The notes under the pieces are model-generated. The model did no database searches and was not told where the DNA came from. It worked only from the letters and a program-made list of their open reading frames with translations. Shown here one piece after another: positions 15,704-32,073 of a stretch of 32,073 nt of DNA. A program made the position numbers and the translations under genes. Positions within the stretch are counted from its first letter, which is position 1. Every line of letters begins with the position of its first letter. The stretch is from an uncultured Spirochaetaceae bacterium (GTDB lineage: Bacteria; Spirochaetota; Spirochaetia; Sphaerochaetales; Sphaerochaetaceae): contig CALXYN010000023.1 of assembly GCA_944392975.1 (NCBI GenBank), forward strand, positions 1 through 32,073, read 5' to 3'.

Positions 15704-17932
15704 ATGAAAAAAAGATTGATTACTTCGGCTTTGCCATATGTCAATAACATTCCGCACCTGGGAAATCTCATGCAGGTGCTTTCTGCGGATGTATTTGCAC
15801 GTTTCTGCCGGTCAAGAGGCTATGAAACGATGTATATCTGTGGAACGGATGAATATGGAACGGCAAGTGAGACAAGAGCTTTGCAGGAGGGTGTTACTCC
15901 ACGTGAACTCTGCGACCACTACCACGAAATTCATAAGAACATCTACAAATGGTTCAATATCTCATTTGATTATTTTGGACGTACAAGTACACCATTGCAG
16001 ACAGAGATAGTTCAGCACATCTTTTCGGAATGTGATAAAAATGGATACATTACAGAAAAGGAGACAGAACAGCTTTTCTGTCCTGATTGCAACCGCTTCC
16101 TTGCTGACAGATTTGTATCCGGAACATGTCCTCATTGCGGTTATGATGGTGCACGTGGTGACCAGTGTGAGAAATGTGGAACACTTCTGGATCCGACAGA
16201 ACTTGTAGATCCAAAATGCTCTGTCTGCGGGGCAACTCCAGTATTGAAGAAGACAAAGAATCTCTACATAAACCTGCCTAAGATTCTTCCGGTGTTCAAG
16301 GAGTGGATGGACAAGGCATCTATTGAAGGTTTCTGGGCAAAGAACGCAATTCAGATTACAGCCTCATGGCTTCGTGACGGATTGCAGGAACGCTGTATTA
16401 CACGCGATCTGAAGTGGGGTATTCCTGTCAACAAACCGGGTTATGAGGATAAAGTATTCTATGTCTGGTTTGATGCGCCTATAGGATATATCTCAATTAC
16501 TGCCAACAAGACTGAGAATTGGGAGTACTGGTGGCGGGATCCTGAAAATACAGAGCTTTATCAGTTCATAGGAAAGGATAATATTCCATTCCATACTGTT
16601 GTCTTCCCCTGTTCGCTTCTTGCCACAAAAGAGAAGTGGACAATGCTCTATCACATGTCTTCGACAGAGTATCTAAACTATGAGGGAGGCAAGTTCTCCA
16701 AGAGCAAGGGAATTGGAATTTTCGGCAACGATGTTGAGGAAACAGGAATTCCTGCAGATGTATGGCGCTTCTATATGTTCTACAACAGGCCTGAAAAGTC
16801 AGATTTCACATTCATGTGGTCAGATTTCCAGGATAAGGTGAATAAGGAACTTATTGGAAACCTTTCCAACCTCGTTAACCGCACACTTACTTTTGTGAAG
16901 AGATTCTACGACGGTCACATTGCTGAAGGAAATCTCGACAACAGTATTGTAGAAGCTGCAAAGGAAAAGGAAAAAATTATCACAGAGGCCCTTGAGAGAG
17001 CTGATGAGAGGGATGCTATCAGAGCTATCTTCGAACTTTCAGATATCGGAAACAAGGCATTCCAGGATGGAGAGCCATGGAAGATGAGAAAGGAGAATCC
17101 AGAGAGTGCAGAGATGCTTCTGAGAACACTTCTCTATCTCATTAGGGACCTTGCTGTGATGATCACACCTTATATGCCAGAAACCGGTGAGAGAATACTC
17201 TCATTCATCGGATCAGAAGGTGCTGACTGGAACACGGTTGGAAGCTTTGCAGGAAATATCGAAGTCAGAAATCCTGAGCTTCTTTTCCAGAAACTTGAGG
17301 ATGATCGTATTGCAGAACTCAGAGAGCGCTATTCTGGCTCGCAGCAAGAGCGTCTTGAAAGAGAAAAGACAGAAAAAGAAGGAAAGAAAATGGACGACAA
17401 CAATATTAAGAAAGAGGAAACTGTGAGTCTTTCAGATCAGTTTGCACGCAGGGTTATTCTGAAAGTTTCAAAGATTGTGAAGGTTGAGAAGCATCCAGGT
17501 GGAGATAAGCTTTATATTCTTACTCTTGACTGTGGCGAAGAGGAACCAAGGGTAATCGTATCTTCAATTGTTCCTTTCTACAGAGAGGATGAACTTCTTG
17601 GACGCAACATCGTACTTGTTTCCAATCTTAAACCGGCTAATTTCCGTGGTGTTAAGAGCCGTGGTATGCTTCTTGCTGCTTCTGATCCGACTGCAGAAGA
17701 CCTGCATTCAACATGTGAGCTTATCTTTGCTGATGATATCGAGCCGGGAACTGTTATAAAGGCTGAAGGTGAAGGCGAGGTTGAGAAGGTCACAACATAC
17801 ATAAAGCCTGATCATTTCTTCGCTCTTCCGATCAAGACAATCGATGGCTATGTGACTGTTGATGGCAAGAAACTCGGATATGATGGAAAATTTCTCCGTG
17901 TTTACAAATATGTCAATGGGAACGTTGGCTAG
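15704..17932 (+). CDS. metG: Methionyl-tRNA synthetase
   Basis: A 742-aa class I synthetase that charges tRNA-Met. The HIGH signature appears as PHLGN near residue 20 and KMSKS as KFSKS at 330-334. Four CxxC pairs between about residues 126 and 185 (CPDC, CPHC, CEKC, CSVC) form a two-zinc connective-peptide knuckle, as in the E. coli-type enzyme. The helical anticodon-binding domain ends with FQDGEPWKM. After a charged linker (about 545-575), a C-terminal EMAPII/Trbp111-like tRNA-binding OB domain follows (VEKHPGGDKLYILTLDCGEE, NLKPANFRGVKSRGMLLAASD), giving dimerisation and extra tRNA affinity. Its upstream region predicts a leaderless transcript. The CsoR-like gene follows after 9 bp. Confidence 0.96.
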   Translation: MKKRLITSALPYVNNIPHLGNLMQVLSADVFARFCRSRGYETMYICGTDEYGTASETRALQEGVTPRELCDHYHEIHKNIYKWFNISFDYFGRTSTPLQTEIVQHIFSECDKNGYITEKETEQLFCPDCNRFLADRFVSGTCPHCGYDGARGDQCEKCGTLLDPTELVDPKCSVCGATPVLKKTKNLYINLPKILPVFKEWMDKASIEGFWAKNAIQITASWLRDGLQERCITRDLKWGIPVNKPGYEDKVFYVWFDAPIGYISITANKTENWEYWWRDPENTELYQFIGKDNIPFHTVVFPCSLLATKEKWTMLYHMSSTEYLNYEGGKFSKSKGIGIFGNDVEETGIPADVWRFYMFYNRPEKSDFTFMWSDFQDKVNKELIGNLSNLVNRTLTFVKRFYDGHIAEGNLDNSIVEAAKEKEKIITEALERADERDAIRAIFELSDIGNKAFQDGEPWKMRKENPESAEMLLRTLLYLIRDLAVMITPYMPETGERILSFIGSEGADWNTVGSFAGNIEVRNPELLFQKLEDDRIAELRERYSGSQQERLEREKTEKEGKKMDDNNIKKEETVSLSDQFARRVILKVSKIVKVEKHPGGDKLYILTLDCGEEEPRVIVSSIVPFYREDELLGRNIVLVSNLKPANFRGVKSRGMLLAASDPTAEDLHSTCELIFADDIEPGTVIKAEGEGEVEKVTTYIKPDHFFALPIKTIDGYVTVDGKKLGYDGKFLRVYKYVNGNVG

Positions 17933-17941
17933 GAGGCGTCT

Positions 17942-18190
17942 ATGGCCCTAGATATCGATGCAGTACATGTCAGGCTAGCTAAGGCTCAGGGGCAGATTGC
18001 AGCTGTTGACCGGATGATATCATCCGGCGACAGCACTGAGCGTATTCTTGTTCAAATCAACGCTGCAAAATCCGCACTTCATAAAGTGGCTTTGCTGGTA
18101 GCAGAAGAAGCTGTTGCTGAGATGCTCGGTGATGAGGAAAAAGGCGAGGAGGCCAAAACCATTATCGAACGTTTTTCATCACTTCTTTGA
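17942..18190 (+). CDS. CsoR/RcnR-type (DUF156) small helical protein lacking metal ligands
   Basis: An 82-aa all-helical protein with the CsoR/RcnR layout: RLAKAQGQIAAVDRMISSG, then ILVQINAAKSALHKVALL. In this family these match the conserved RL.R.EGQv.gi.rMi and QI.A...AL segments. Canonical copper sensors use Cys-His-Cys. Here the aligned positions are T32, A57 and M61, and the protein has no cysteine at all; its only His residues are at 9 and 47. It may therefore be a ligand-free DNA-binding or structural homologue, or sense something else. The start follows AGGAGG. It is 9 bp after metG and converges on murD, overlapping its reconstructed 3' end by 12 bp. Confidence 0.75.
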   Translation: MALDIDAVHVRLAKAQGQIAAVDRMISSGDSTERILVQINAAKSALHKVALLVAEEAVAEMLGDEEKGEEAKTIIERFSSLL

Positions 18191-19480
18191 TAGCAGTTCT
18201 GTTACGGCACTGCGGAATGCAGAACCGCGTTCGAATTCATTTGTGAAATATTCGTTTGCATATGCACCCGGTGATAATAGTATTATCTCCGGGTTATCTC
18301 TTGCTCCTCTGTGATCAAGCGCTGTTTCATATGCCATTTCCACTGCCTCGTCCATTTTTTCATATGGTCAATTGAATATTAATCCTTCCCGATTGAGAAA
18401 TGGAAGGACTTTTTGTGAAAGACTTCCAAAGAGAATAGTAAGAGAAACAGCTTCATCCAAGGGCTGCATGAGCTGTGTAATATCCGTGTTGCTTTTATCC
18501 GTTCCACCTACAATCAGATGAACAGGTGTTCCTTTCATTCCCCGCATGGAAAATGCAACTGAAAGAGGAAGTACAGAAGAGGAATCGTTGATGAATGAGA
18601 TTCCTTTATTCACAGCAACAAGCTCAAGTCTGTTCGGTATGCCTTTGTACCCCCTGAACGCTTTTCCTATGTCTTTTTTCCTGAATCCCAGTGCCCTGAT
18701 GCATTCCCATGCAAGTTCTGTACCGGCTTTTGCACGGAAAGGATTTGTAAGAGATGGATAACCTTTTACTTTTGCTTTTGGAATGATTCCGGAAAAAAGC
18801 ATTTTCTCTCTTAGAAAACGGGGGATTATAAGTTTTCTTACCCATGGACCGATGAAAAGAGAACCTTCTGATGTCATGTCCAAGGGAGATGTCGGAATAG
18901 GAATCGTATCAGTTATTGCTGCTATATCGATACGTGGCCAGACATAACCAAGAGCCGAAGCTGTATCCTTTATCTGCCACATTGACATCTCGATGATTAC
19001 AGCATCATAGAGTTTGTCATCATTTTCGATTTCTGAAAGCAGATGAAATGCAGAGTACCCGAGGTTTTCTGAAAATGCAGCTTTCATGCCCAGTGAATTC
19101 AATGCATCGGCCAATGCGGAAGCAGTGCTTGTCTTTCCTTTTGAACCGGCAATGACAATACGGTGCATCCTCTCTGTCTTGGGATTTTCAAGGAGTGCTG
19201 CAATATCATTGGTGATATGCTTCGCCTTCTTTTTCACGAGGTAAGGAACCGGTACTCCTGGAACCTTGACAACAAGCTCTGCTTTCTCAACAGCATCCAT
19301 GAGCATATCTTTCGTGACGAAAACAGCTCCCTTCGATTCAAGAAGGTTGATTATCATCCTTTCATTCTCTCTGTTTTCAGAAGAACCGATGATTTCAACA
19401 CTGTGTCCAAGCTTGAGATAATATTCAGCTGCCTCTGCACCCCCGCCAGAGGACCCAAGGCCTAGGATAAGTACTCTCAC
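18179..19480 (-). pseudogene. murD: UDP-N-acetylmuramoyl-L-alanine--D-glutamate ligase with an in-frame TGA
   Basis: MurD adds D-Glu to UDP-MurNAc-L-Ala in cytoplasmic peptidoglycan synthesis. Reading from GTG at 19480, the Rossmann N-domain (VLILGLGSSGGGAEAAEYY), ATP-binding GSKGKTS (112-118), central-domain acids and the C-domain NDSSSVLPLS and VGGTDKSN are all present. Translation stops at TGA (18368-18370), codon 371. In the same frame 62 more codons continue (PYEKMDEAVEMAYETA..., then LLSPGAYANEYFTNEFERGSAF) to TGA at 18179-18181. They match the MurD C-terminus and restore the normal length of about 433 aa. The interrupted codon is probably an ancestral Gly (GGA). It may be a nonsense mutation, an assembly error or a readthrough site. 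TATACT lies 7 nt before the GTG, with no SD. Confidence 0.85.
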
Positions 19481-19848: not shown

Positions 19849-20601
19849 TTATTCTGGTTTCAGAACGGAATCTGGAAGCAATTTTCTAAGAGCCAGTTCT
19901 GCCATTTTCGCTCCAAATATTGCAGTAATGTATGGCAGTGATCCCAGCACAAGTCTTTTCCTTCCGTTCTCATCATTCTCAGCATCCGGATCTTCATCTG
20001 GCTGGATGTATTTGAAATTGACTTTTTCAGGGGAGAATATACACTCAATGCCTTTTCCGATTCCGTTCTTTCTGAGTCCTGAACGTACTTGTTTTGCAAG
20101 AGGGCAGCCCCATGTGTCCATGATGTCTCCTGACCTTATCAGGTAAGAGTCCTTTCTCAGTGCAGCTCCCATTGATGAGATTATTGGAATACTTTCTGTA
20201 TATGCCTTTGTGAGCAATGCAATTTTGTCCTTTACACTGTCAATGCAGTCCAGAACAATGTCTGTACCCTGAATTAAACTGCAGACATTTTCCTCTGTTA
20301 GTCTTTCTGTAATTGAATGGACATTGCAGTTCGGATTTATATCAAGAATACGTTTTTTCATCACCTCTGTTTTCAAACATCCGACAGTTGAATGCAGGGC
20401 GATGATCTGCCTGTTTATATTGCTTTCAGAAACAGTATCAAAATCTGCAATTGTTATTTCTCCGATACCACAGCGGACAAGCATTTCAATGGCATAACCG
20501 CCGACAGCACCAGCTCCTGCGACAAAGACCTTTTTCTCTGATAGTTTATTTACGTTGTTTTCTCCTATGAATCTGGCGATTCTCTGAAACTGCTTATCCA
20601 T
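19849..20601 (-). CDS. tcdA: tRNA threonylcarbamoyladenosine dehydratase (TcdA/CsdL, ThiF-type E1 family)
   Basis: A 250-aa E1-like adenylating enzyme (E. coli TcdA is 268 aa) that cyclises t6A37 to ct6A in ANN-decoding tRNAs. RIARFIGENNVNKLSEKKV leads into the nucleotide-binding GAGAVGG (29-35). IADFDTVSESNINRQ holds D53 and the Arg finger, LDCIDSVKDKI follows, and the TcdA-like stretch DTWGCPLAKQVRSGLRKNG is present. Architecture fits TcdA better than MoeB or ThiF, because no zinc CxxC pairs or thiocarboxylate partner genes are seen. The start follows AAGGAG and overlaps the TatD-like stop by 8 bp. Confidence 0.87.
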   Translation of the reverse strand: MDKQFQRIARFIGENNVNKLSEKKVFVAGAGAVGGYAIEMLVRCGIGEITIADFDTVSESNINRQIIALHSTVGCLKTEVMKKRILDINPNCNVHSITERLTEENVCSLIQGTDIVLDCIDSVKDKIALLTKAYTESIPIISSMGAALRKDSYLIRSGDIMDTWGCPLAKQVRSGLRKNGIGKGIECIFSPEKVNFKYIQPDEDPDAENDENGRKRLVLGSLPYITAIFGAKMAELALRKLLPDSVLKPE

Positions 20602-21208
20602 GTAGAAGCTCCTTCATGATTTCTTCTGTCCTTTTTCCTGTATCGAGACCAGTAAGTGCCATAAGATGGTGATTCCATTTCTCAAGTTCATTCATTTCCT
20701 TTTCTCCTGTCAGCATGTCTGTCTCGGTTACGAAGGGGAGTGTGAGAAGTGATGAGAAGTGCTTTGTGTTTACTGCACGAGGAGAGAGGGAAATAATTCC
20801 ACCAAGTCTGATGAATTCCTCCGCAGTTTCCCTAGAACCAGTGAACCCATGGATCATGAACTGATGAATGTCCATTTCTTTTATGATCTCAAGCACTTTT
20901 CCATACTCTCTCACAATATGAATAACAGCTATTTTGTCATATTCCCTGGCTATCGATAATGCTTTCCTGAAGATATGCTCCTGTCTCTCCATATCCGACC
21001 ACCTTCTGTCGAGACCTATTTCTCCGATATGGAATCCATTTGCTGCCGCTCTCTCCATGATTGAGAAATCAGGGGGTGTACTGCTTTCTGGAAGTGTTCC
21101 TATTGCCTTATACCTAAATGGGCATAGGTTGTCATAATCAGAAGTGCTTGCAGAACAGACAAATGCATTGTCGATAATTGCTTCTGGATGAGCATGTGCA
21201 TCAAACAT
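20594..21208 (-). CDS. TatD-like metal-dependent hydrolase, shortened
   Basis: A 204-aa TatD-family amidohydrolase-fold protein; family members are Mg-dependent DNases of about 255-265 aa. The expected metal ligands are visible: DAHAHP at the N-terminus, the Glu in GEIGLDRRW, the His in AVIHIVRE, the His in FMIHGFTGS and the Asp in TETDM. It is shorter than usual; the segment after ETD lacks the normal P.y...N.P motif and ends in a short helix. It may be a divergent TatD with an altered substrate. It is first in a two-gene operon with tcdA. TATATA lies 7 nt before the ATG and there is no SD, so a leaderless mRNA is predicted. Confidence 0.8.
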   Translation of the reverse strand: MFDAHAHPEAIIDNAFVCSASTSDYDNLCPFRYKAIGTLPESSTPPDFSIMERAAANGFHIGEIGLDRRWSDMERQEHIFRKALSIAREYDKIAVIHIVREYGKVLEIIKEMDIHQFMIHGFTGSRETAEEFIRLGGIISLSPRAVNTKHFSSLLTLPFVTETDMLTGEKEMNELEKWNHHLMALTGLDTGKRTEEIMKELLHG

Positions 21209-25269: not shown

Positions 25270-26679
25270 ATGAGAACGCTACCACATAATGATGAGGCTG
25301 AGAAAGCTATACTCGGTGCACTCCTGATGAGGGAGGATGCCTATGATACAGTTTCTGAAAAGCTTGATGCCGCTGATTTCTATCAGCCGATGAATGGTGT
25401 CATTTTCTCTGCCATCACCAAAATGAAGGAAACTTCTAATCAGGCAATTGATTTCATTACTCTCATAGATTTCCTGAAAAAGGAAGGTTCTCTCGATAAA
25501 GCTGGAGGAATTGCCTACATTGCTTCACTCACGGAATCTGTGAATGTCACATCTAATGTAGAGCAGTATGCGGCAATCGTAAAGGAGATGTCTATCCGGC
25601 GTGCAGTTCTTTCAATGAGTACCTCATTTTCTGAGAAAGCAATGGATGCGACTGCGGATATCCTTTCTGTTCTGGATCAAGGCCAGAGCGAAATGCTGCA
25701 GCTTTCTCTCACTGGCTCTACGGCAGAAACCGATTATTCCATTTCCTCTGCTGTCAGTTCTGTTGTCGACAGGATCATCAAGAAAATGGATGGCACACTT
25801 GCCGATGATTCAGTTCCTTCCGGTTTTGATATCCTTGATAAATATACAAACGGAGGTTTTAAACCGCAGGACTACATAGTTGTCGCGGCGCGTCCATCAA
25901 TCGGTAAGACAGCTTTCGGTGTTTCCATGATCCGTAACATGATCCGCGATACAGACAGAGAGCAGCGTGTTGCCTTCTTTTCTCTGGAAATGCCTGCAAG
26001 TCAGATTACAGAACGTCTTCTGGCAAATATTTCCCATGTCAATCTACGTAATATCGCACAGGCCGATCTTTCTTCAGAAGATTCGTTTGAGCGTGTGATG
26101 AATGCTGCAGATATCCTTTTTTCAAAGAAACTTTACATCATTGATGTTCCGAATATCAGGCTGAATGAACTGAGGGCAAAGGCTAGGGCATTGAAGAGAG
26201 AGAAGGATATTACAGTTCTGATGATTGATTACATCGGCCTCATTGATCCGGGGCTGGGGCCGCAGACTCCTCGCCATGAAGTCATTGCTACTGTTTCCCG
26301 CTCTCTTAAAAGCCTCGCACGAGAACTGAAGATACCAATCATTGTTCTTTGCCAGGTTTCGAGAGACAGCGAGGAGAAAGCTCCTATACTTTCCAATCTC
26401 CGCGATTCAGGATCTATCGAGCAGGATGCTGATGTGGTAATGTTCCTCCATAGAAAGAGAATCCTTTCGGAGGAAGAGAAACAGAGGAATGCTAAAGACA
26501 TCGAGGGCAGGGCAACGCTGCAGGTTACGAAGGTAATAGTTGCTAAACAGCGTAATGGAGAGACAGGGGAGTTCAAAGTCGGTTACAACGCTGCTACAAC
26601 GTCGTTTGAACAGGTTGTGCAGACTGCGGATTTCATTGAGCCTATGCCACCGGAAAAACGCGGTTATGAGAAGAAATAG
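25270..26679 (+). CDS. dnaB: Replicative DNA helicase DnaB
   Basis: A 469-aa hexameric helicase that unwinds DNA ahead of the replisome and recruits primase. The N-domain (PHNDEAEKAILGALLMRED) covers about residues 1-110. The RecA-like motor has Walker A as ARPSIGKTAF (about 206-215), the FFSLEMPASQITERLL motif, Walker B VLMIDYIGLI, and the LCQVSR and LRDSGSIEQDADVVMFLHR motifs. The family length is about 450-470. I use the ATG at 25270, after a GGAG; a TTG at 25258 is open but would lie only 8 nt from the -10. The 3' end overlaps the convergent rseP by 16 bp. Confidence 0.95.
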   Translation: MRTLPHNDEAEKAILGALLMREDAYDTVSEKLDAADFYQPMNGVIFSAITKMKETSNQAIDFITLIDFLKKEGSLDKAGGIAYIASLTESVNVTSNVEQYAAIVKEMSIRRAVLSMSTSFSEKAMDATADILSVLDQGQSEMLQLSLTGSTAETDYSISSAVSSVVDRIIKKMDGTLADDSVPSGFDILDKYTNGGFKPQDYIVVAARPSIGKTAFGVSMIRNMIRDTDREQRVAFFSLEMPASQITERLLANISHVNLRNIAQADLSSEDSFERVMNAADILFSKKLYIIDVPNIRLNELRAKARALKREKDITVLMIDYIGLIDPGLGPQTPRHEVIATVSRSLKSLARELKIPIIVLCQVSRDSEEKAPILSNLRDSGSIEQDADVVMFLHRKRILSEEEKQRNAKDIEGRATLQVTKVIVAKQRNGETGEFKVGYNAATTSFEQVVQTADFIEPMPPEKRGYEKK

Positions 26680-27977
26680 GCTTTGATGTCGAGACTGTAC
26701 ATAGCGATTATGATTATCAAAGCCAGAACCATACCAATCAGCTGAAGTATTATATATGCCCTTGGAGATAGTTCTCTGCATTTTATCATCTCAATGATGT
26801 TTATAAGCATCTGGCCTCCATCGAATGTCGGAATGGGCAGCATATTTCCAACCGATATTGACAATGAGACCATGGCAAGAAGCATCAGAACCGTCCTTAC
26901 TCCGCTTGTTCCGCTTGCAGAAAAGGCAAGGGCAGTTATTCCTCCTATGCTTTCTGCAGCTTTTACAGGGCCTGTTATAACTGTCATTGCATCTTCTATA
27001 TGCAGTGTTATGAAAGCACCTAGCGCATTCAATGCAGCTGCGGACATTTCCGTAGCTCTCTTCAGGCCATAGGAGAATGGTTGATTGCTCTCTGCGCTTC
27101 TTCGCAGATTGCTGTACCAGGCAAATGGCAGATATCCATTCTCTATTCTTCTTTGCAGCAGTTCACCGTTCCTGTCGATTACAAGCATAAATGACGGTTT
27201 GTTGATCGCATAAAGGTCGAGAGTATATTCAATTTCCTTTCCGTCTGCTTCAACTATTCTGTCTCCAGGAAGAAAATCTGGAGACAATGATCTTCCTACA
27301 ACCGGTTCCTGCAGATTCGTGATTCCATAAACAGCACCAGTTTCAGTTTCTGTAGGGATCAGCTCTGTACTTACATTTTCTCCATTTCTAAGTACACATA
27401 GCGGTATGATTTCTCCCTGATGCAATTTTATGTAATCCTCCGCATCCTGCCAGTCCTTGAATGTATAATCACCGGAAGAAAGCAGTTTGTCGCCTTTTTC
27501 TATTCCGTTTTGCCGTATGTTCTCTCCGAAAATACAGCTGTATTCTGCTATCGGGGTGACTATTGCAGGATCAGAAAGGCGTTCGACAGGAATCATTGCA
27601 GAGAGACTGAGCATCAACACACCGATTATGAAGTTCGTAAGAGGTCCTGCAAGATAGATGAGAAAACGGGCAAGGGGTGTTGTTCCAAAATACGAACCGG
27701 CCTCTGATTTGTTCATGCTTTTGGCATCATCCTTTAGAGCTTTCATCAGATCAAGGGAACCCTTCATCCTGCAGTATCCGCCGAAAGGAATCAATGAAAT
27801 CCGGTACTCCGTTGTTCGTCCATAGAACGAGAAAAGCCGTGGTCCCATTCCATAGGAAAGTACCTCCACGTCGACCTTCATCAGTCGTGCTGCTATAAAA
27901 TGACCTAGTTCATGCAGAAAGAGGACGATACCGATTCCAATCAGGCCGATAATCATGTACAGGAGGTAAATCAGCAT
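26664..27977 (-). CDS. rseP: RseP-type site-2 zinc metalloprotease (M50)
   Basis: A 437-aa intramembrane protease that would cleave membrane-spanning substrates such as anti-sigma factors or leftover signal peptides. The zinc motif HELGH lies at residues 22-26 in the first membrane helix. LAGPLTNFIIG, one or two degenerate PDZ-like regions (about 140-270; SPDFLPGDRIVEADGKEI is the clearer), and the third zinc-ligand region NMLPIPTFDGGQ follow. This last has Phe where LDGG is usual. Two C-terminal membrane helices complete it. It is last in the rpsB-to-rseP block; its start overlaps the dxr stop by 7 bp. Confidence 0.9.
   Translation of the reverse strand: MLIYLLYMIIGLIGIGIVLFLHELGHFIAARLMKVDVEVLSYGMGPRLFSFYGRTTEYRISLIPFGGYCRMKGSLDLMKALKDDAKSMNKSEAGSYFGTTPLARFLIYLAGPLTNFIIGVLMLSLSAMIPVERLSDPAIVTPIAEYSCIFGENIRQNGIEKGDKLLSSGDYTFKDWQDAEDYIKLHQGEIIPLCVLRNGENVSTELIPTETETGAVYGITNLQEPVVGRSLSPDFLPGDRIVEADGKEIEYTLDLYAINKPSFMLVIDRNGELLQRRIENGYLPFAWYSNLRRSAESNQPFSYGLKRATEMSAAALNALGAFITLHIEDAMTVITGPVKAAESIGGITALAFSASGTSGVRTVLMLLAMVSLSISVGNMLPIPTFDGGQMLINIIEMIKCRELSPRAYIILQLIGMVLALIIIIAMYSLDIKAYFFS
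26679..26724. repeat. 9-bp inverted repeat at the dnaB stop
   Basis: GGCTTTGAT (26679-26687) and ATCAAAGCC (26716-26724) are exact reverse complements 28 bp apart, starting on the last base of dnaB and lying within the 3' coding end of rseP. With no T-run, termination is doubtful. Confidence 0.35.
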
Positions 27978-29050
27978 AGTGCCTCTGCTTTCTTTCTTGC
28001 TTCCCTGTCGATCTCAAGGATTTCTTCAAATGAAGAAGGTTCTGAAAGTGTAAATGATGATGAAAGCACTTCAGTTGTTATTTCATGGATTCTATTGAAG
28101 GAAATCCGTCCATCAAGGAACGCATTGACGGCACATTCATCGGCACGCGTATATGCAATCCTGTATCCTCCGCCAAGTTTTAGAGCTTCATAGGCGAGTG
28201 AAAGCATTGGAAAATGATTTCTATCCCAGCCTTCAAATGAAAGGTTGAAAGCTGAAGAGAAAGGCAGAGCCGCTGTAAGTCTTTTCGGGCTGTTTCCTTC
28301 TCCTGTGATTGCCATCACAATCGGGAGTGTCATATCAGGAGGAGAGAGCAGAGCATATACAGCACCTTCTGAGGTTTCTATCATGGAGTGAACGATGGAT
28401 TGACGGTGAATAGTCACATCAATTTTGTCAGGAGGAAAACCGAATAGAAGCGAAGCCTCCATCACTTCCAGCCCTTTATTTGCAAGTGTTGCACTGTCAA
28501 CAGTGATCTTTTTCCCCATTTTCCATGTTGGATGGCAAAGAGCTTCTTTGACTGTTACATTGGATGTATCTTTTCTGTCAACAAAAGGACCTCCTGAGGC
28601 TGTTATTATCAGACGGGAAGCCTTTTTCCCCTGCAGAAGGTGATAGATAGCACTGTGCTCGCTATCAACCGGGATAATCCGGACATTGTTTCTTTTTGCT
28701 TCATTGAGCATGAAGCTGCCACCCATCACAACAGATTCTTTATTGGCAAGCGCTATATCCCTTCCCTTTGAAATTGCAGTAAGCGTTGCTGGCAGTCCTG
28801 AAGAACCTGCAATGGCATTGAGTATTATATCTGGGGAAGTTTTATCAATGAACTCGGATAGACGTCTTGTATCATTACCGTTGAGATAACAGAACTCTGA
28901 ATTGAAATCGCTTGCAAGCTTTTCAAGAGAAGGGGATGTTGCTGCTGTCAGTCCAGCTATCTTCACGTCAGGCATCAGACCGTTTCTGAATGCCTTAAGA
29001 CATGTGCTGCCTATTGAACCAGTCGCTCCAAGTATCAGAAGTCTTATCAT
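27971..29050 (-). CDS. dxr: 1-deoxy-D-xylulose-5-phosphate reductoisomerase
   Basis: A 359-aa NADPH-dependent enzyme making MEP, the committed step of non-mevalonate isoprenoid synthesis. The NADPH loop is GATGSIGST, starting at residue 8. The active-site stretches ALANKESVVMGG, IPVDSEHSAIYHLL, HPTWKMGKKITVDSATLANKG and VTIHRQSIVHSMIE carry the metal and substrate residues. It is slightly shorter than the usual 380-400 through a compact C-domain. Its start overlaps the cdsA stop by 4 bp (ATGA). It supplies precursors for the undecaprenyl diphosphate made by the product of uppS two genes upstream. Confidence 0.95.
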   Translation of the reverse strand: MIRLLILGATGSIGSTCLKAFRNGLMPDVKIAGLTAATSPSLEKLASDFNSEFCYLNGNDTRRLSEFIDKTSPDIILNAIAGSSGLPATLTAISKGRDIALANKESVVMGGSFMLNEAKRNNVRIIPVDSEHSAIYHLLQGKKASRLIITASGGPFVDRKDTSNVTVKEALCHPTWKMGKKITVDSATLANKGLEVMEASLLFGFPPDKIDVTIHRQSIVHSMIETSEGAVYALLSPPDMTLPIVMAITGEGNSPKRLTAALPFSSAFNLSFEGWDRNHFPMLSLAYEALKLGGGYRIAYTRADECAVNAFLDGRISFNRIHEITTEVLSSSFTLSEPSSFEEILEIDREARKKAEALC

Positions 29051-29889
29051 ATACCAAGGAATACAGTCAGAATCGCAACATATACAGGTGCTGCCATGAC
29101 GACGGAATCGACTGAATCAAGTACACCGCCTCTTCCTGGTATTATATTCCCTGAATCCTTAACTTCTGCACATCTCTTGAAAGAAGACTCGATGAGGTCT
29201 CCTGTAGCAGCTAATGCAGCAGTAATTCCTCCAAGAAGGAATCCTTCAAAAAGCGAGTATGTGAATATTTCAGGGAAGATGTATGCTGAAAGCAGGCCGA
29301 ACAATGCAGGTACAAGAAGACCTCCGATAAAACCGGCCACGGATTTGTTCGGACTTACTTTTATGATTCCTTTATTGTTTTTCCCGAAAGCAATGCCGAA
29401 GAAATAGGCAAAGGTATCTGAACCGAATACAAGCAGGAAGAAGAACAGAATGAACCATGCTGAATGTTCGATGAATGCAATTCTGATGACAAAAGAAGCA
29501 AAGAGGCCAGGGTAGATGATGTTAAGCACTGTTTTGCTGTTTCTTTCCCACGTGCCATGGAAACTGTCTTTTGCTCCTGTGAATATCTCAAGAAACATTG
29601 TAAGTCCCATCAGGAACATCAATGTATAGAACGTTAGCTCCAAATCAGGGAAATAGCGGAACTGAACATACTGCGCCAGTGGCAGCAAAGCTCCAGCATA
29701 TGATGTAAACGGAAGTTTCTCTTCATCTTTTGAAAGCAATGATCGCATTTCAAGAGAGCCGAGGAGGGTGATTACCGTAATCGTGAGACAGAAGACTAAA
29801 TGGTCTAAAAAGGGTAGAAAAACAACGATGATAATCAGTGTGGGGACAGCAATCACTGCTGTCAGAATCCTTTTCTTTAGGCTACCCAT
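29047..29889 (-). CDS. cdsA: Phosphatidate cytidylyltransferase
   Basis: A 280-aa inner-membrane enzyme making CDP-diacylglycerol, the precursor of phospholipids. There are about seven or eight hydrophobic segments. The CdsA signature region is present as SPNKSVAGFIGGLLVPALFG followed by GDLIESSFKRCAEVKDSGNIIPGRGGVLDSVDSVV, described in part, with the metal-binding acids and D.G...PGHGG-like loop given as IPGRGGVLDSVDS. The start at 29889 follows GGAGG; the open frame further upstream overlaps uppS. It begins one base after the uppS stop. Confidence 0.93.
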   Translation of the reverse strand: MGSLKKRILTAVIAVPTLIIIVVFLPFLDHLVFCLTITVITLLGSLEMRSLLSKDEEKLPFTSYAGALLPLAQYVQFRYFPDLELTFYTLMFLMGLTMFLEIFTGAKDSFHGTWERNSKTVLNIIYPGLFASFVIRIAFIEHSAWFILFFFLLVFGSDTFAYFFGIAFGKNNKGIIKVSPNKSVAGFIGGLLVPALFGLLSAYIFPEIFTYSLFEGFLLGGITAALAATGDLIESSFKRCAEVKDSGNIIPGRGGVLDSVDSVVMAAPVYVAILTVFLGI

Positions 29890-29890
29890 T

Positions 29891-30565
29891 TCAAACGCCT
29901 CCGAATCTTCTCTGCCTGGATTCAAAATCATTTAGAATGATTTTTACCATTGATTCATCCCAATCAGGCCAAAGTTTATCATAAAAACCCAATTCTGCAT
30001 AGCTTGACTGCAAAAGGAGAAAACCTGAAAGTCTCTTTTCTCCAGAAGCCCTGGCAATGAAATCCGGAGGGGGAACTTCTGGATTGTCTACAAGTGACAT
30101 AACAGTTTTTTCATCAACATGGTCCTGTAGCCTGGCTTTTTCAATCAGTCTTGTAATTTCATCAAGACCACCATAGTTGATTGCAAGCTGCAGCGTCAGT
30201 CTTGTTTCATTTTTCGTTTCCTGCCGAGCTTCATCGATGACTTTCAGAACATCGCTAGGAAGCCCTTGCCTGTTTCCGAGATGCAGAATTCGGATACCGT
30301 TTTTCTTTGCTGTGGGGATTTCAGCTTTTAATCGGGATGAGAAAAGACCCATGAGGTAGTCTATCTCCTCTCTGGGTCTTTTCCAGTTTTCGGTTGAGAA
30401 GCAATAGAGCGTCAGGTATGGTATTGAATTTGAAAGGCATGCGCGGATGACGCGTAGTGCCGCCTTCCCTCCTTCAAGATGACCGGCAGAACGGGGAAGG
30501 TTCCGCTTTTCAGCCCATCTCCCGTTGCCGTCCATTATCAGTGCCAGATGCTCAAGCTTCGCCAC
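29891..30565 (-). CDS. uppS: Isoprenyl transferase (undecaprenyl diphosphate synthase)
   Basis: A 224-aa cis-prenyltransferase that lengthens farnesyl diphosphate to undecaprenyl diphosphate, the lipid carrier for peptidoglycan. MDGNGRWAEKRNLPRSAGH carries the catalytic Asp (D12). YCFSTENWKRPREEID, LQLAINYGGLDEI and the C-terminal PDFIARASGEKRLSGFLLLQSSYAEL are all family signatures. In that last block, Ala-Ser-Gly-Glu replaces the commoner RTSGE. I chose GTG at 30565, because GGAG lies 7 nt before it; the ATG at 30613 would place 16 unusual residues inside frr. It starts 1 bp after the frr stop. Confidence 0.93.
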   Translation of the reverse strand: MAKLEHLALIMDGNGRWAEKRNLPRSAGHLEGGKAALRVIRACLSNSIPYLTLYCFSTENWKRPREEIDYLMGLFSSRLKAEIPTAKKNGIRILHLGNRQGLPSDVLKVIDEARQETKNETRLTLQLAINYGGLDEITRLIEKARLQDHVDEKTVMSLVDNPEVPPPDFIARASGEKRLSGFLLLQSSYAELGFYDKLWPDWDESMVKIILNDFESRQRRFGGV

Positions 30566-30566
30566 C

Positions 30567-31121
30567 TTAGATCTCCATGATCTCCTTCTCCTTAGCTTCT
30601 GCAATCTTTGCAATGTCTGCTATGGATGAATCGGTGAGCTTCTGTATTTTCTGCTCTCCTTCTTTCTGCTCGTCCTCGCTGATGTCTCCATTTTTTTGGA
30701 GCTTCTTCAGCTCCTCCATGGCGTCACGGCGAATATTGCGGATAGCAACACGTGCATTCTCTGCTGTAGCCTTTGCATTCTTTGCAAGCTCCTTTCTTCT
30801 TTCCTCTGTGAGAGGTGGGAATGCTACGCGGATGAGCTTTCCATCATTATTCGGATTGAGTCCAAGCTCTGATTTCTGGATTGCTTTCTCAATAGCAGAA
30901 AGCACACTCTTGTCCCATGGCTGAATGACTACAAGCCTTGCCTCAGGCACGCTGATAGAAGCTACCTGAGAAAGGGGAGTCTCCGCACCATAGTAATCAA
31001 CTTTGATTTTATCGAAGAGCTGAGCTGATGCACGTCCTGTGCGAAGCGAGGCGAATTCCTGTGAGAGGGATTCGACAGACTTCTTCATTCTTGTGCTACA
31101 GTTTTCAATAACTGTCTGCAT
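30567..31121 (-). CDS. frr: Ribosome recycling factor
   Basis: A 184-aa cytoplasmic protein that with EF-G splits the post-termination ribosome. ENCSTRMKKSVESLSQEFASLRTGRASAQLFDKI and WDKSVLSAIEKAIQKSELGLNPNNDGKLIRVAFPPLTEERRKEL (in part) are the hallmark three-helix and beta-domain regions. Length is typical (185). AGGAGG lies before the ATG. It follows tsf after 9 bp with no pyrH in between, which is the order I recall for Treponema. Confidence 0.96.
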   Translation of the reverse strand: MQTVIENCSTRMKKSVESLSQEFASLRTGRASAQLFDKIKVDYYGAETPLSQVASISVPEARLVVIQPWDKSVLSAIEKAIQKSELGLNPNNDGKLIRVAFPPLTEERRKELAKNAKATAENARVAIRNIRRDAMEELKKLQKNGDISEDEQKEGEQKIQKLTDSSIADIAKIAEAKEKEIMEI

Positions 31122-31130
31122 CTCTCCTCC

Positions 31131-31985
31131 TTAGGCTGATACGCCAGCCTGATAAACCTCATAAGCTGTTATCTGAAGAGAAGCACCATGTGCCTTTCCT
31201 GTCTCTGCAAGCATCTGGCTTACAGACTTTGAGTCGTCCTTTACGTAAGCCTGATCAAGGAAGCAGACTTCCTTGTAAAGCTTTGAAAGCTTTCCTCTGA
31301 CGATGCCCTCTCTGACCTTCTCTGGCTTGGAAGCGAGTTTCTCATCAGCCTCAACCTGCTTGCGGAAGATTCCGAGCTGCTCTTCTTCATACTCCTTGCT
31401 TACAGCGTTCTCATCAAGGAACTGTGGCTTGTATGCAGCTGCATGGAGAGCAAGGTTGTGTGCGAGCTCTTCTACATCTGCTTCCTTGAAGATTTCCGGC
31501 TTGTCGGACTTGAGCATGACAAGTACTGCAACAGCACCCTCTCCATGGATATATGTGGAAGCATATGAATCTGCTGGAACATCATAGACAGAGAACTTAA
31601 CAAGGTGCATGTTCTCCTTGATGATTGCGATGAGGGCGTTGACCATCTCCTCAAGCTCTGCGTTGATTTCTGTATATCCTTTCTCAAGGATGACTGTGCA
31701 GAGATCATCTCCAAGCTTTGCGAAGTCCTTGTTCTGTGCAACAAAGTCTGTCTCGCAGGAAAGGGAAAGGACAACAGCCTTGCCATTGCCTGCCTTAACG
31801 AATACGCGGCCATTCTCAGTTGCTCTGTCCTGGCGCTTTGCTACTGCTGCAAGACCCATTTCCTTGAGGATTTTCTCTGCCTGAGCAAAGTCACCATTAG
31901 CCTCGCTGAGAGCCTTCTTGCAGTCCATCATGCCTGCTCCGGTGATGTCTCTGAGCTTCTTTACATCAGATGCGCTGATTGCCAT
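31131..31985 (-). CDS. tsf: Elongation factor Ts
   Basis: A 284-aa guanine-nucleotide exchange factor for EF-Tu. The N-terminal UBA-like domain is SASDVKKLRDITGAGMMDCKKALSEANGD, described in part. The core has ENGRVFVKAGNGKAVVLSLSCETDFVAQN, containing the TDFV EF-Tu contact, and the C-terminal region ends VYQAGVSA. The start at 31985 follows AAGGAG; an upstream in-frame ATG at 32042 lies within rpsB. It is 10 bp after the rpsB stop. Confidence 0.96.
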   Translation of the reverse strand: MAISASDVKKLRDITGAGMMDCKKALSEANGDFAQAEKILKEMGLAAVAKRQDRATENGRVFVKAGNGKAVVLSLSCETDFVAQNKDFAKLGDDLCTVILEKGYTEINAELEEMVNALIAIIKENMHLVKFSVYDVPADSYASTYIHGEGAVAVLVMLKSDKPEIFKEADVEELAHNLALHAAAYKPQFLDENAVSKEYEEEQLGIFRKQVEADEKLASKPEKVREGIVRGKLSKLYKEVCFLDQAYVKDDSKSVSQMLAETGKAHGASLQITAYEVYQAGVSA

Positions 31986-31995
31986 ATTCCTCTCC

Positions 31996-32073
31996 TTAGT
32001 TATTGAAATACTCTTCTTCCTCTTCTGCAGCTTCGTCCTCATCCTTTGCGGTTTCGTCTGCGCAAGGTGCGTA
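31996..32073 (-). CDS. rpsB: 30S ribosomal protein uS2, C-terminal tail (partial)
   Basis: The last 25 codons of a gene entering from the right edge. They encode YAPCADETAKDEDEAAEE followed by EEEYFNN and TAA. An acidic uS2 tail directly before tsf fits rpsB. The identification rests mainly on gene order, because the conserved core is outside the window. Confidence 0.75.
   Translation of the reverse strand, partial: YAPCADETAKDEDEAAEEEEEYFNN

Follow-up and report, generated by a model that had tools for sequence, protein, structure and literature searches.

How can a bacterium carry its only murD gene interrupted by an in-frame stop codon, with the conserved end of the protein still encoded behind it? 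The question arises from a 32,073-nucleotide stretch of spirochaete DNA (the window; contig C23 of genome G000, an assembly of 2.07 Mb in 109 contigs, 95% complete). An earlier, sequence-only reading left three answers side by side: a fresh nonsense change, an assembly error, or a genuine readthrough or suppression event. The first two still give the best reading, that of a private one-base change, and the third has found no support. We put the probability at roughly 0.6 that the TGA arose by a recent, isolated nonsense change of a single base in the orphan murD of a lineage that lacks the peptidoglycan pathway. The next sections discuss the stop codon, then the genomic setting that would make it tolerable.

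The Interrupted Reading Frame

The murD gene begins as a minus-strand ORF with a GTG start, runs for 370 codons and meets a TGA at codon 371 of 433, beyond which a further 62 codons in frame lead to a final TGA (Table 1). The post-stop frame contains PYEKMDEAVEMAYETA...LLSPGAYANEYFTNEFERG..., and its identity to close relatives, 64-77% over 62 residues, indicates that the match is not a chance similarity. The arrangement first described, a TGA followed in frame by the MurD C-terminus with 433 residues in total, is thereby confirmed, and apart from this codon the gene (19480..18182) is intact. The gene is single-copy; a search for a second murD in the genome returned none.

Table 1. Features around the interrupted murD gene, in window positions
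Feature	Position	Strand	Remarks
metG (methionine-tRNA ligase)	15704..17932	+	murD neighbour kept in the genus and in family members that bear the peptidoglycan pathway
CsoR-like metal-sensing repressor	17942..18190	+	convergent neighbour, overlaps the murD end; intact
murD orthologue, orphan in the genus	18179..19480	-	GTG start 19480, final stop TGA 18179-18181
62 post-stop codons, rest of MurD domain 3 including LLSPGA...F	18182..18367	-	relaxed selection not seen
In-frame TGA, codon 371	18368..18370	-	Gly (GGN) in all relatives
DHxxxY...DK region of true MurDs (approximate limits)	18800..18930	-	here TIPIPTSPLDMTSEGSLFIGPW; lost genus-wide
N-terminal part of the middle domain: P-loop GSKGKTST and IEMSMWQ (Glu)	18953..19168	-	P-loop and Glu both retained

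Alignment with relatives shows what stood at this position. Codon 371 is GGT, GGC, GGA or GGG in 27 of 27 related loci, which include a few duplicate records of one genome, and the position is also Gly in the 12 outgroup MurDs from other Spirochaetia (12/12). The counter-case named in the earlier reading, relatives that have a natural stop at this position, is excluded, since none of the 27 loci has one, and a naturally shorter form of MurD is ruled out by the glycine found in all relatives. The TGA is thus private to this genome and differs by a single base from a conserved glycine codon, which supports the earlier guess that a glycine codon had stood there.

Divergence along the gene bears on the age of the stop. 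The dN ratio of the part after the stop to the part before it is 1.64 in this genome, within the 1.29-2.02 of ten relatives, so the reported lack of decay downstream is borne out. Measured against the nearest relative, L021, the post-stop pN/pS is 0.114/0.55 = 0.21, and the terminal branch of the MurD protein in the tree is 0.12, as is that of its sister L021; an old pseudogene is ruled out by these equal branches and by the absence of added divergence after the stop. The dating is a coarse one, the nearest available relative being 82% identical in protein. When the proteins of nine related loci were aligned to the window, the TGA was the sole lesion in its syntenic genes, and no other stops or frameshifts were seen in its conserved genes. 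The absence of decay would fit a recent stop, a consensus error, or a protein that is still made. As a side observation, the TatD-family protein at 20594-21208 has 204 aa and its homologues in relatives mostly have 203-205 aa, indicating a conserved short form and no truncation.

The last of these options holds that the TGA is read through or recoded, by leakiness of UGA-C, by a suppressor tRNA or as selenocysteine, with full-length protein still produced. A C after UGA makes for weak termination, as the earlier reading noted, and the intact, unrelaxed frame behind the stop is what such a mechanism would leave. Against it, no tRNA with a UCA anticodon occurs among all 46 matches of the 95%-complete assembly to the general tRNA model (as distinct from one for tRNA-Sec), no SECIS-like hairpin stands out after the UGA (z 0.39, and no Rfam match), TGA serves as a regular stop that ends 16 of the 31 genes in the window, more than any other stop, and codon 371 is a sense codon in all relatives. 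The weakest of the 46 matches is part of the tmRNA. Readthrough or suppression is therefore unsupported, and we regard it as very improbable. The same 46 matches lack tRNA-Gly (GCC), tRNA-Ile (GAT) and tRNA-Ala (TGC), probably owing to assembly gaps at rRNA operons and repeats.

Orthology and Conservation of the Orphan murD

Read through the stop, the gene scores 187.9 bits against the murD model TIGR01087, and 147 bits in its truncated form, with the NCBIfam cut-off at 211.95; the orphan MurD is thus a divergent one that falls below both Pfam and NCBIfam cut-offs. Its identity is nevertheless clear from other evidence. The 25 MurD proteins of the genus fall into a single clade (100/99) that groups with MurD from G125, which belongs to the family and has five matches to Mur ligases. 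The gene adjoins metG and an SPFH pair in the window as in G125 and G040, and rpsF-ssb-rpsR-rplI-dnaB as in G040 and G075, and the best 33 PDB matches in Foldseek are all MurD. Sequence, tree, fold and gene position agree that this is a vertical murD orthologue at its ancestral place, and tree and gene position rule out a paralogue unrelated to peptidoglycan.

The gene is present in 19 of the 23 other genomes of the genus, one copy being split between contigs. No murD match was found in the remaining four, and the reported incompleteness of the 23 genomes sums to about 2.6 expected misses, for which reason no loss elsewhere in the genus is claimed. Among close relatives the pN/pS of murD is near 0.15, and the orphan gene thus stays under purifying selection in the genus.

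The Peptidoglycan Pathway in the Genus and the Family

The search for the pathway covered 24 genomes of the genus, the present one among them, as well as 16 other Spirochaetia. The names of the relatives include Candidatus Ornithospirochaeta stercoripullorum and stercoravium, from which we infer that the genus is Candidatus Ornithospirochaeta or very near it. The PBP transpeptidase was found in 0/24 genomes of the genus and in 16/16 of the others, as was MraY (with a score under the curated cut-off in the outgroup G031). MurG reaches at most 33 bits in the 24 genomes, compared with 199-286 in other Spirochaetia, and MurA at most 74 bits, the level of AroA, compared with 440-521. The Mur ligase middle domain has 1-2 matches in each of 16 genomes of the genus versus 4-6 in 10 others, and one match in each of four further genomes of the genus; the other match in the present genome is FolC-like by sequence. 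With no MurC-level ligase found in the genus and MurA matches at AroA level only, these searches point to no supply of UDP-MurNAc-L-Ala.

With several genomes of the genus at 95-99% completeness, the missing genes cannot be put down to gaps in the assemblies. PBP transpeptidase, MraY, MurG, MurA and the Mur ligases are thus absent or represented at paralogue level, the pattern of a peptidoglycan-less lineage, and judged by gene content the genus would make no peptidoglycan at all. The sequence-only reading had regarded murD as essential in an organism that makes peptidoglycan; this is not supported here, as the genus lacks the other peptidoglycan genes and its MurD has lost catalytic residues (see the next section). 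Literature that deals with Ornithospirochaeta, or with the loss of peptidoglycan in its family, was not found among openly licensed articles, and an earlier description may exist elsewhere.

The family is divided in this respect. Genera g18, g19, g21, g65-g69, g75-g77 and g79-g81 have 3-6 Mur ligases, whereas g1 (this genus), g20, g70-g74 and g78 have only 0-2 Mur-ligase middle-domain matches, and the loss of peptidoglycan may be wider than this genus. For the seven further genera of the second group (g20, g70-g74, g78), 0-2 matches is the level of FolC alone, and in one member of g20 (G103, 1.2 Mb, 97% complete) a murD match is entirely absent.

Two other observations concern neighbouring pathways. 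Genes for undecaprenyl diphosphate synthase, a CdsA-like cytidylyltransferase, Dxr and RseP are kept at 26664-32042 despite the missing peptidoglycan genes, and other glycans may make use of the undecaprenyl carrier. Neither the genus nor several mur-bearing Spirochaetia have glutamate racemase (TIGR00067; lacking in G000-G023, G025, G026, G031, G037-G039 in all); the latter must make D-Glu by another route, and the absence is uninformative about D-Glu supply because outgroups that bear the pathway share it.

Catalytic Residues and Domains

The DH...DK element, which comprises the Mg-binding His and the carbamylated Lys, is lost in 25 of 25 copies of the genus, whereas it is present in 12/12 outgroup MurDs, a set that excludes locus L081, and in those family members that have Mur ligases. 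E. coli MurD requires a carbamoylated Lys198 for its activity (PMC4816537). The orphan protein would therefore, on its sequence, probably no longer make UDP-MurNAc-L-Ala-D-Glu. The P-loop (GxxGKS/T) is retained as GSKGKTST and is lost only in L019 and L020 among the copies of the genus, which suggests that most copies may still bind a nucleotide. These two copies (from G020 and G021, genomes of 1.5 Mb) have GSRDQS in place of GSKGKT and sit on a long branch, yet encode a full-length MurD.

The AlphaFold2 model (mean pLDDT 81, pTM 0.65) places residue 371 in a strand (370-373) of domain 3, and truncation at this point would remove the last predicted strands and helices of the domain, including the LLSP...F motif. 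This motif matches the stretch of E. coli MurD with Ser415 and Phe422, which together with K348 belong to the D-Glu site (PMC3527612). The C-terminal domain is present in frame, with the equivalents of S415 and F422 falling after the stop; once truncated, the protein would probably not be active as a MurD.

A quite different account of the locus is that peptidoglycan is made in the genus after all, by highly divergent enzymes that the searches missed, that its MurD works, and that the stop is tolerated through readthrough, an error or the complementation of two fragments, for which an in-frame ATG lies five codons past the internal TGA. A MurD so divergent as to fall under the Pfam and NCBIfam cut-offs lends it some plausibility, as do Bullifex and Sphaerochaeta, in which PBPs are reported absent, murA-G and mraY are kept and, in B. 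porci, muropeptides were detected (PMC7738495). This account would require several independent families to be missing or at paralogue level in 24 genomes when the same searches find them in all 16 outgroups, and it also has to face the loss of the Lys needed for activity and the same lack of Mur ligases in seven other genera of the family. We give it the least credence of all the explanations considered, below even readthrough.

Origin of the Stop Codon

The TGA may also be a consensus error or the base of a minority strain, the cells themselves carrying an intact orphan murD. The genome is a fragmented draft of 109 contigs, the named relatives that were found are without exception MAGs or uncultured, and the assembly is probably metagenome-derived. 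The lesion is unique in the window, one base from a conserved codon and followed by no decay, and the retention of murD in 19 of the 23 other genomes of the genus points to a function under selection, which would suffer from a genuine stop. Short-read assemblies rarely contain wrong single bases in their consensus, provided that coverage is adequate, and there is no further lesion that would point to poor assembly. An error of this kind is on balance unlikely, although it is the most serious competitor of a real stop.

The preferred explanation, a real and recent nonsense change, can be set out as follows. The spirochaete lineage has lost the genes of the peptidoglycan pathway and kept murD as a leftover or reused part. 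The Mg-binding and carbamate-lysine element of this murD has disappeared genus-wide while the gene remained under purifying selection, and the protein would have left its work as UDP-MurNAc-L-Ala:D-Glu ligase for a non-wall role, most likely as a nucleotide-binding ligase-like protein or pseudoenzyme. An isolated single-base change would then have created the TGA in this genome, truncating domain 3 and inactivating or weakening this copy, though not with the fatal outcome that a walled bacterium would be expected to suffer; with the rest of the wall pathway lost in the genus, a stop in murD need not be lethal. The simplest reading of the orphan gene is that of a reused protein with another function. 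The fuller scenario, that peptidoglycan synthesis was lost, MurD alone was kept and reworked to a non-wall function, with its truncation or loss now under way in one species, is offered more tentatively.

The stop codon itself is minor and matters mainly as a test of whether the role of the orphan MurD is dispensable. Of more interest is that a spirochaete genus lacking the peptidoglycan genes retains a modified murD as an orphan. Such a lone conserved MurD would give a direct handle on the abilities of Mur ligases outside wall synthesis.

Comparison with Known Systems

The closest comparison is with true MurD, as known from E. coli (1UAG/2UAG) and S. agalactiae (3LK7). The orphan is its orthologue by tree and gene position and shares the three-domain fold and the P-loop, with the Arg of GIPNRLE and the NDS, GG.DK and LLSP...F motifs mostly kept. 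It differs in having no peptidoglycan pathway around it, in the lost DH...DK element, the shortened middle domain and the score below the curated cut-off and, in this genome, in the stop at codon 371.

Few bacteria are known to have lost peptidoglycan, the best known being the Mollicutes and intracellular lineages. The Mollicutes are wall-less and have lost the pathway, with occasional leftover wall genes. The present genus resembles them in both the loss and the leftover; here, however, the lineage is one of gut spirochaetes and what is left over is a MurD both conserved and modified. If the interpretation is correct, a gut spirochaete genus that lacks the precursor pathway, or as many as eight genera of the family going by Mur-ligase counts, would add a large case of peptidoglycan loss, next to Bullifex and Sphaerochaeta, which have lost only the PBPs. 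With these spherical spirochaetes (Bullifex porci and Sphaerochaeta spp.) the genus shares a reduced wall apparatus devoid of PBPs, but it lacks the precursor pathway too and so would stand one step further along.
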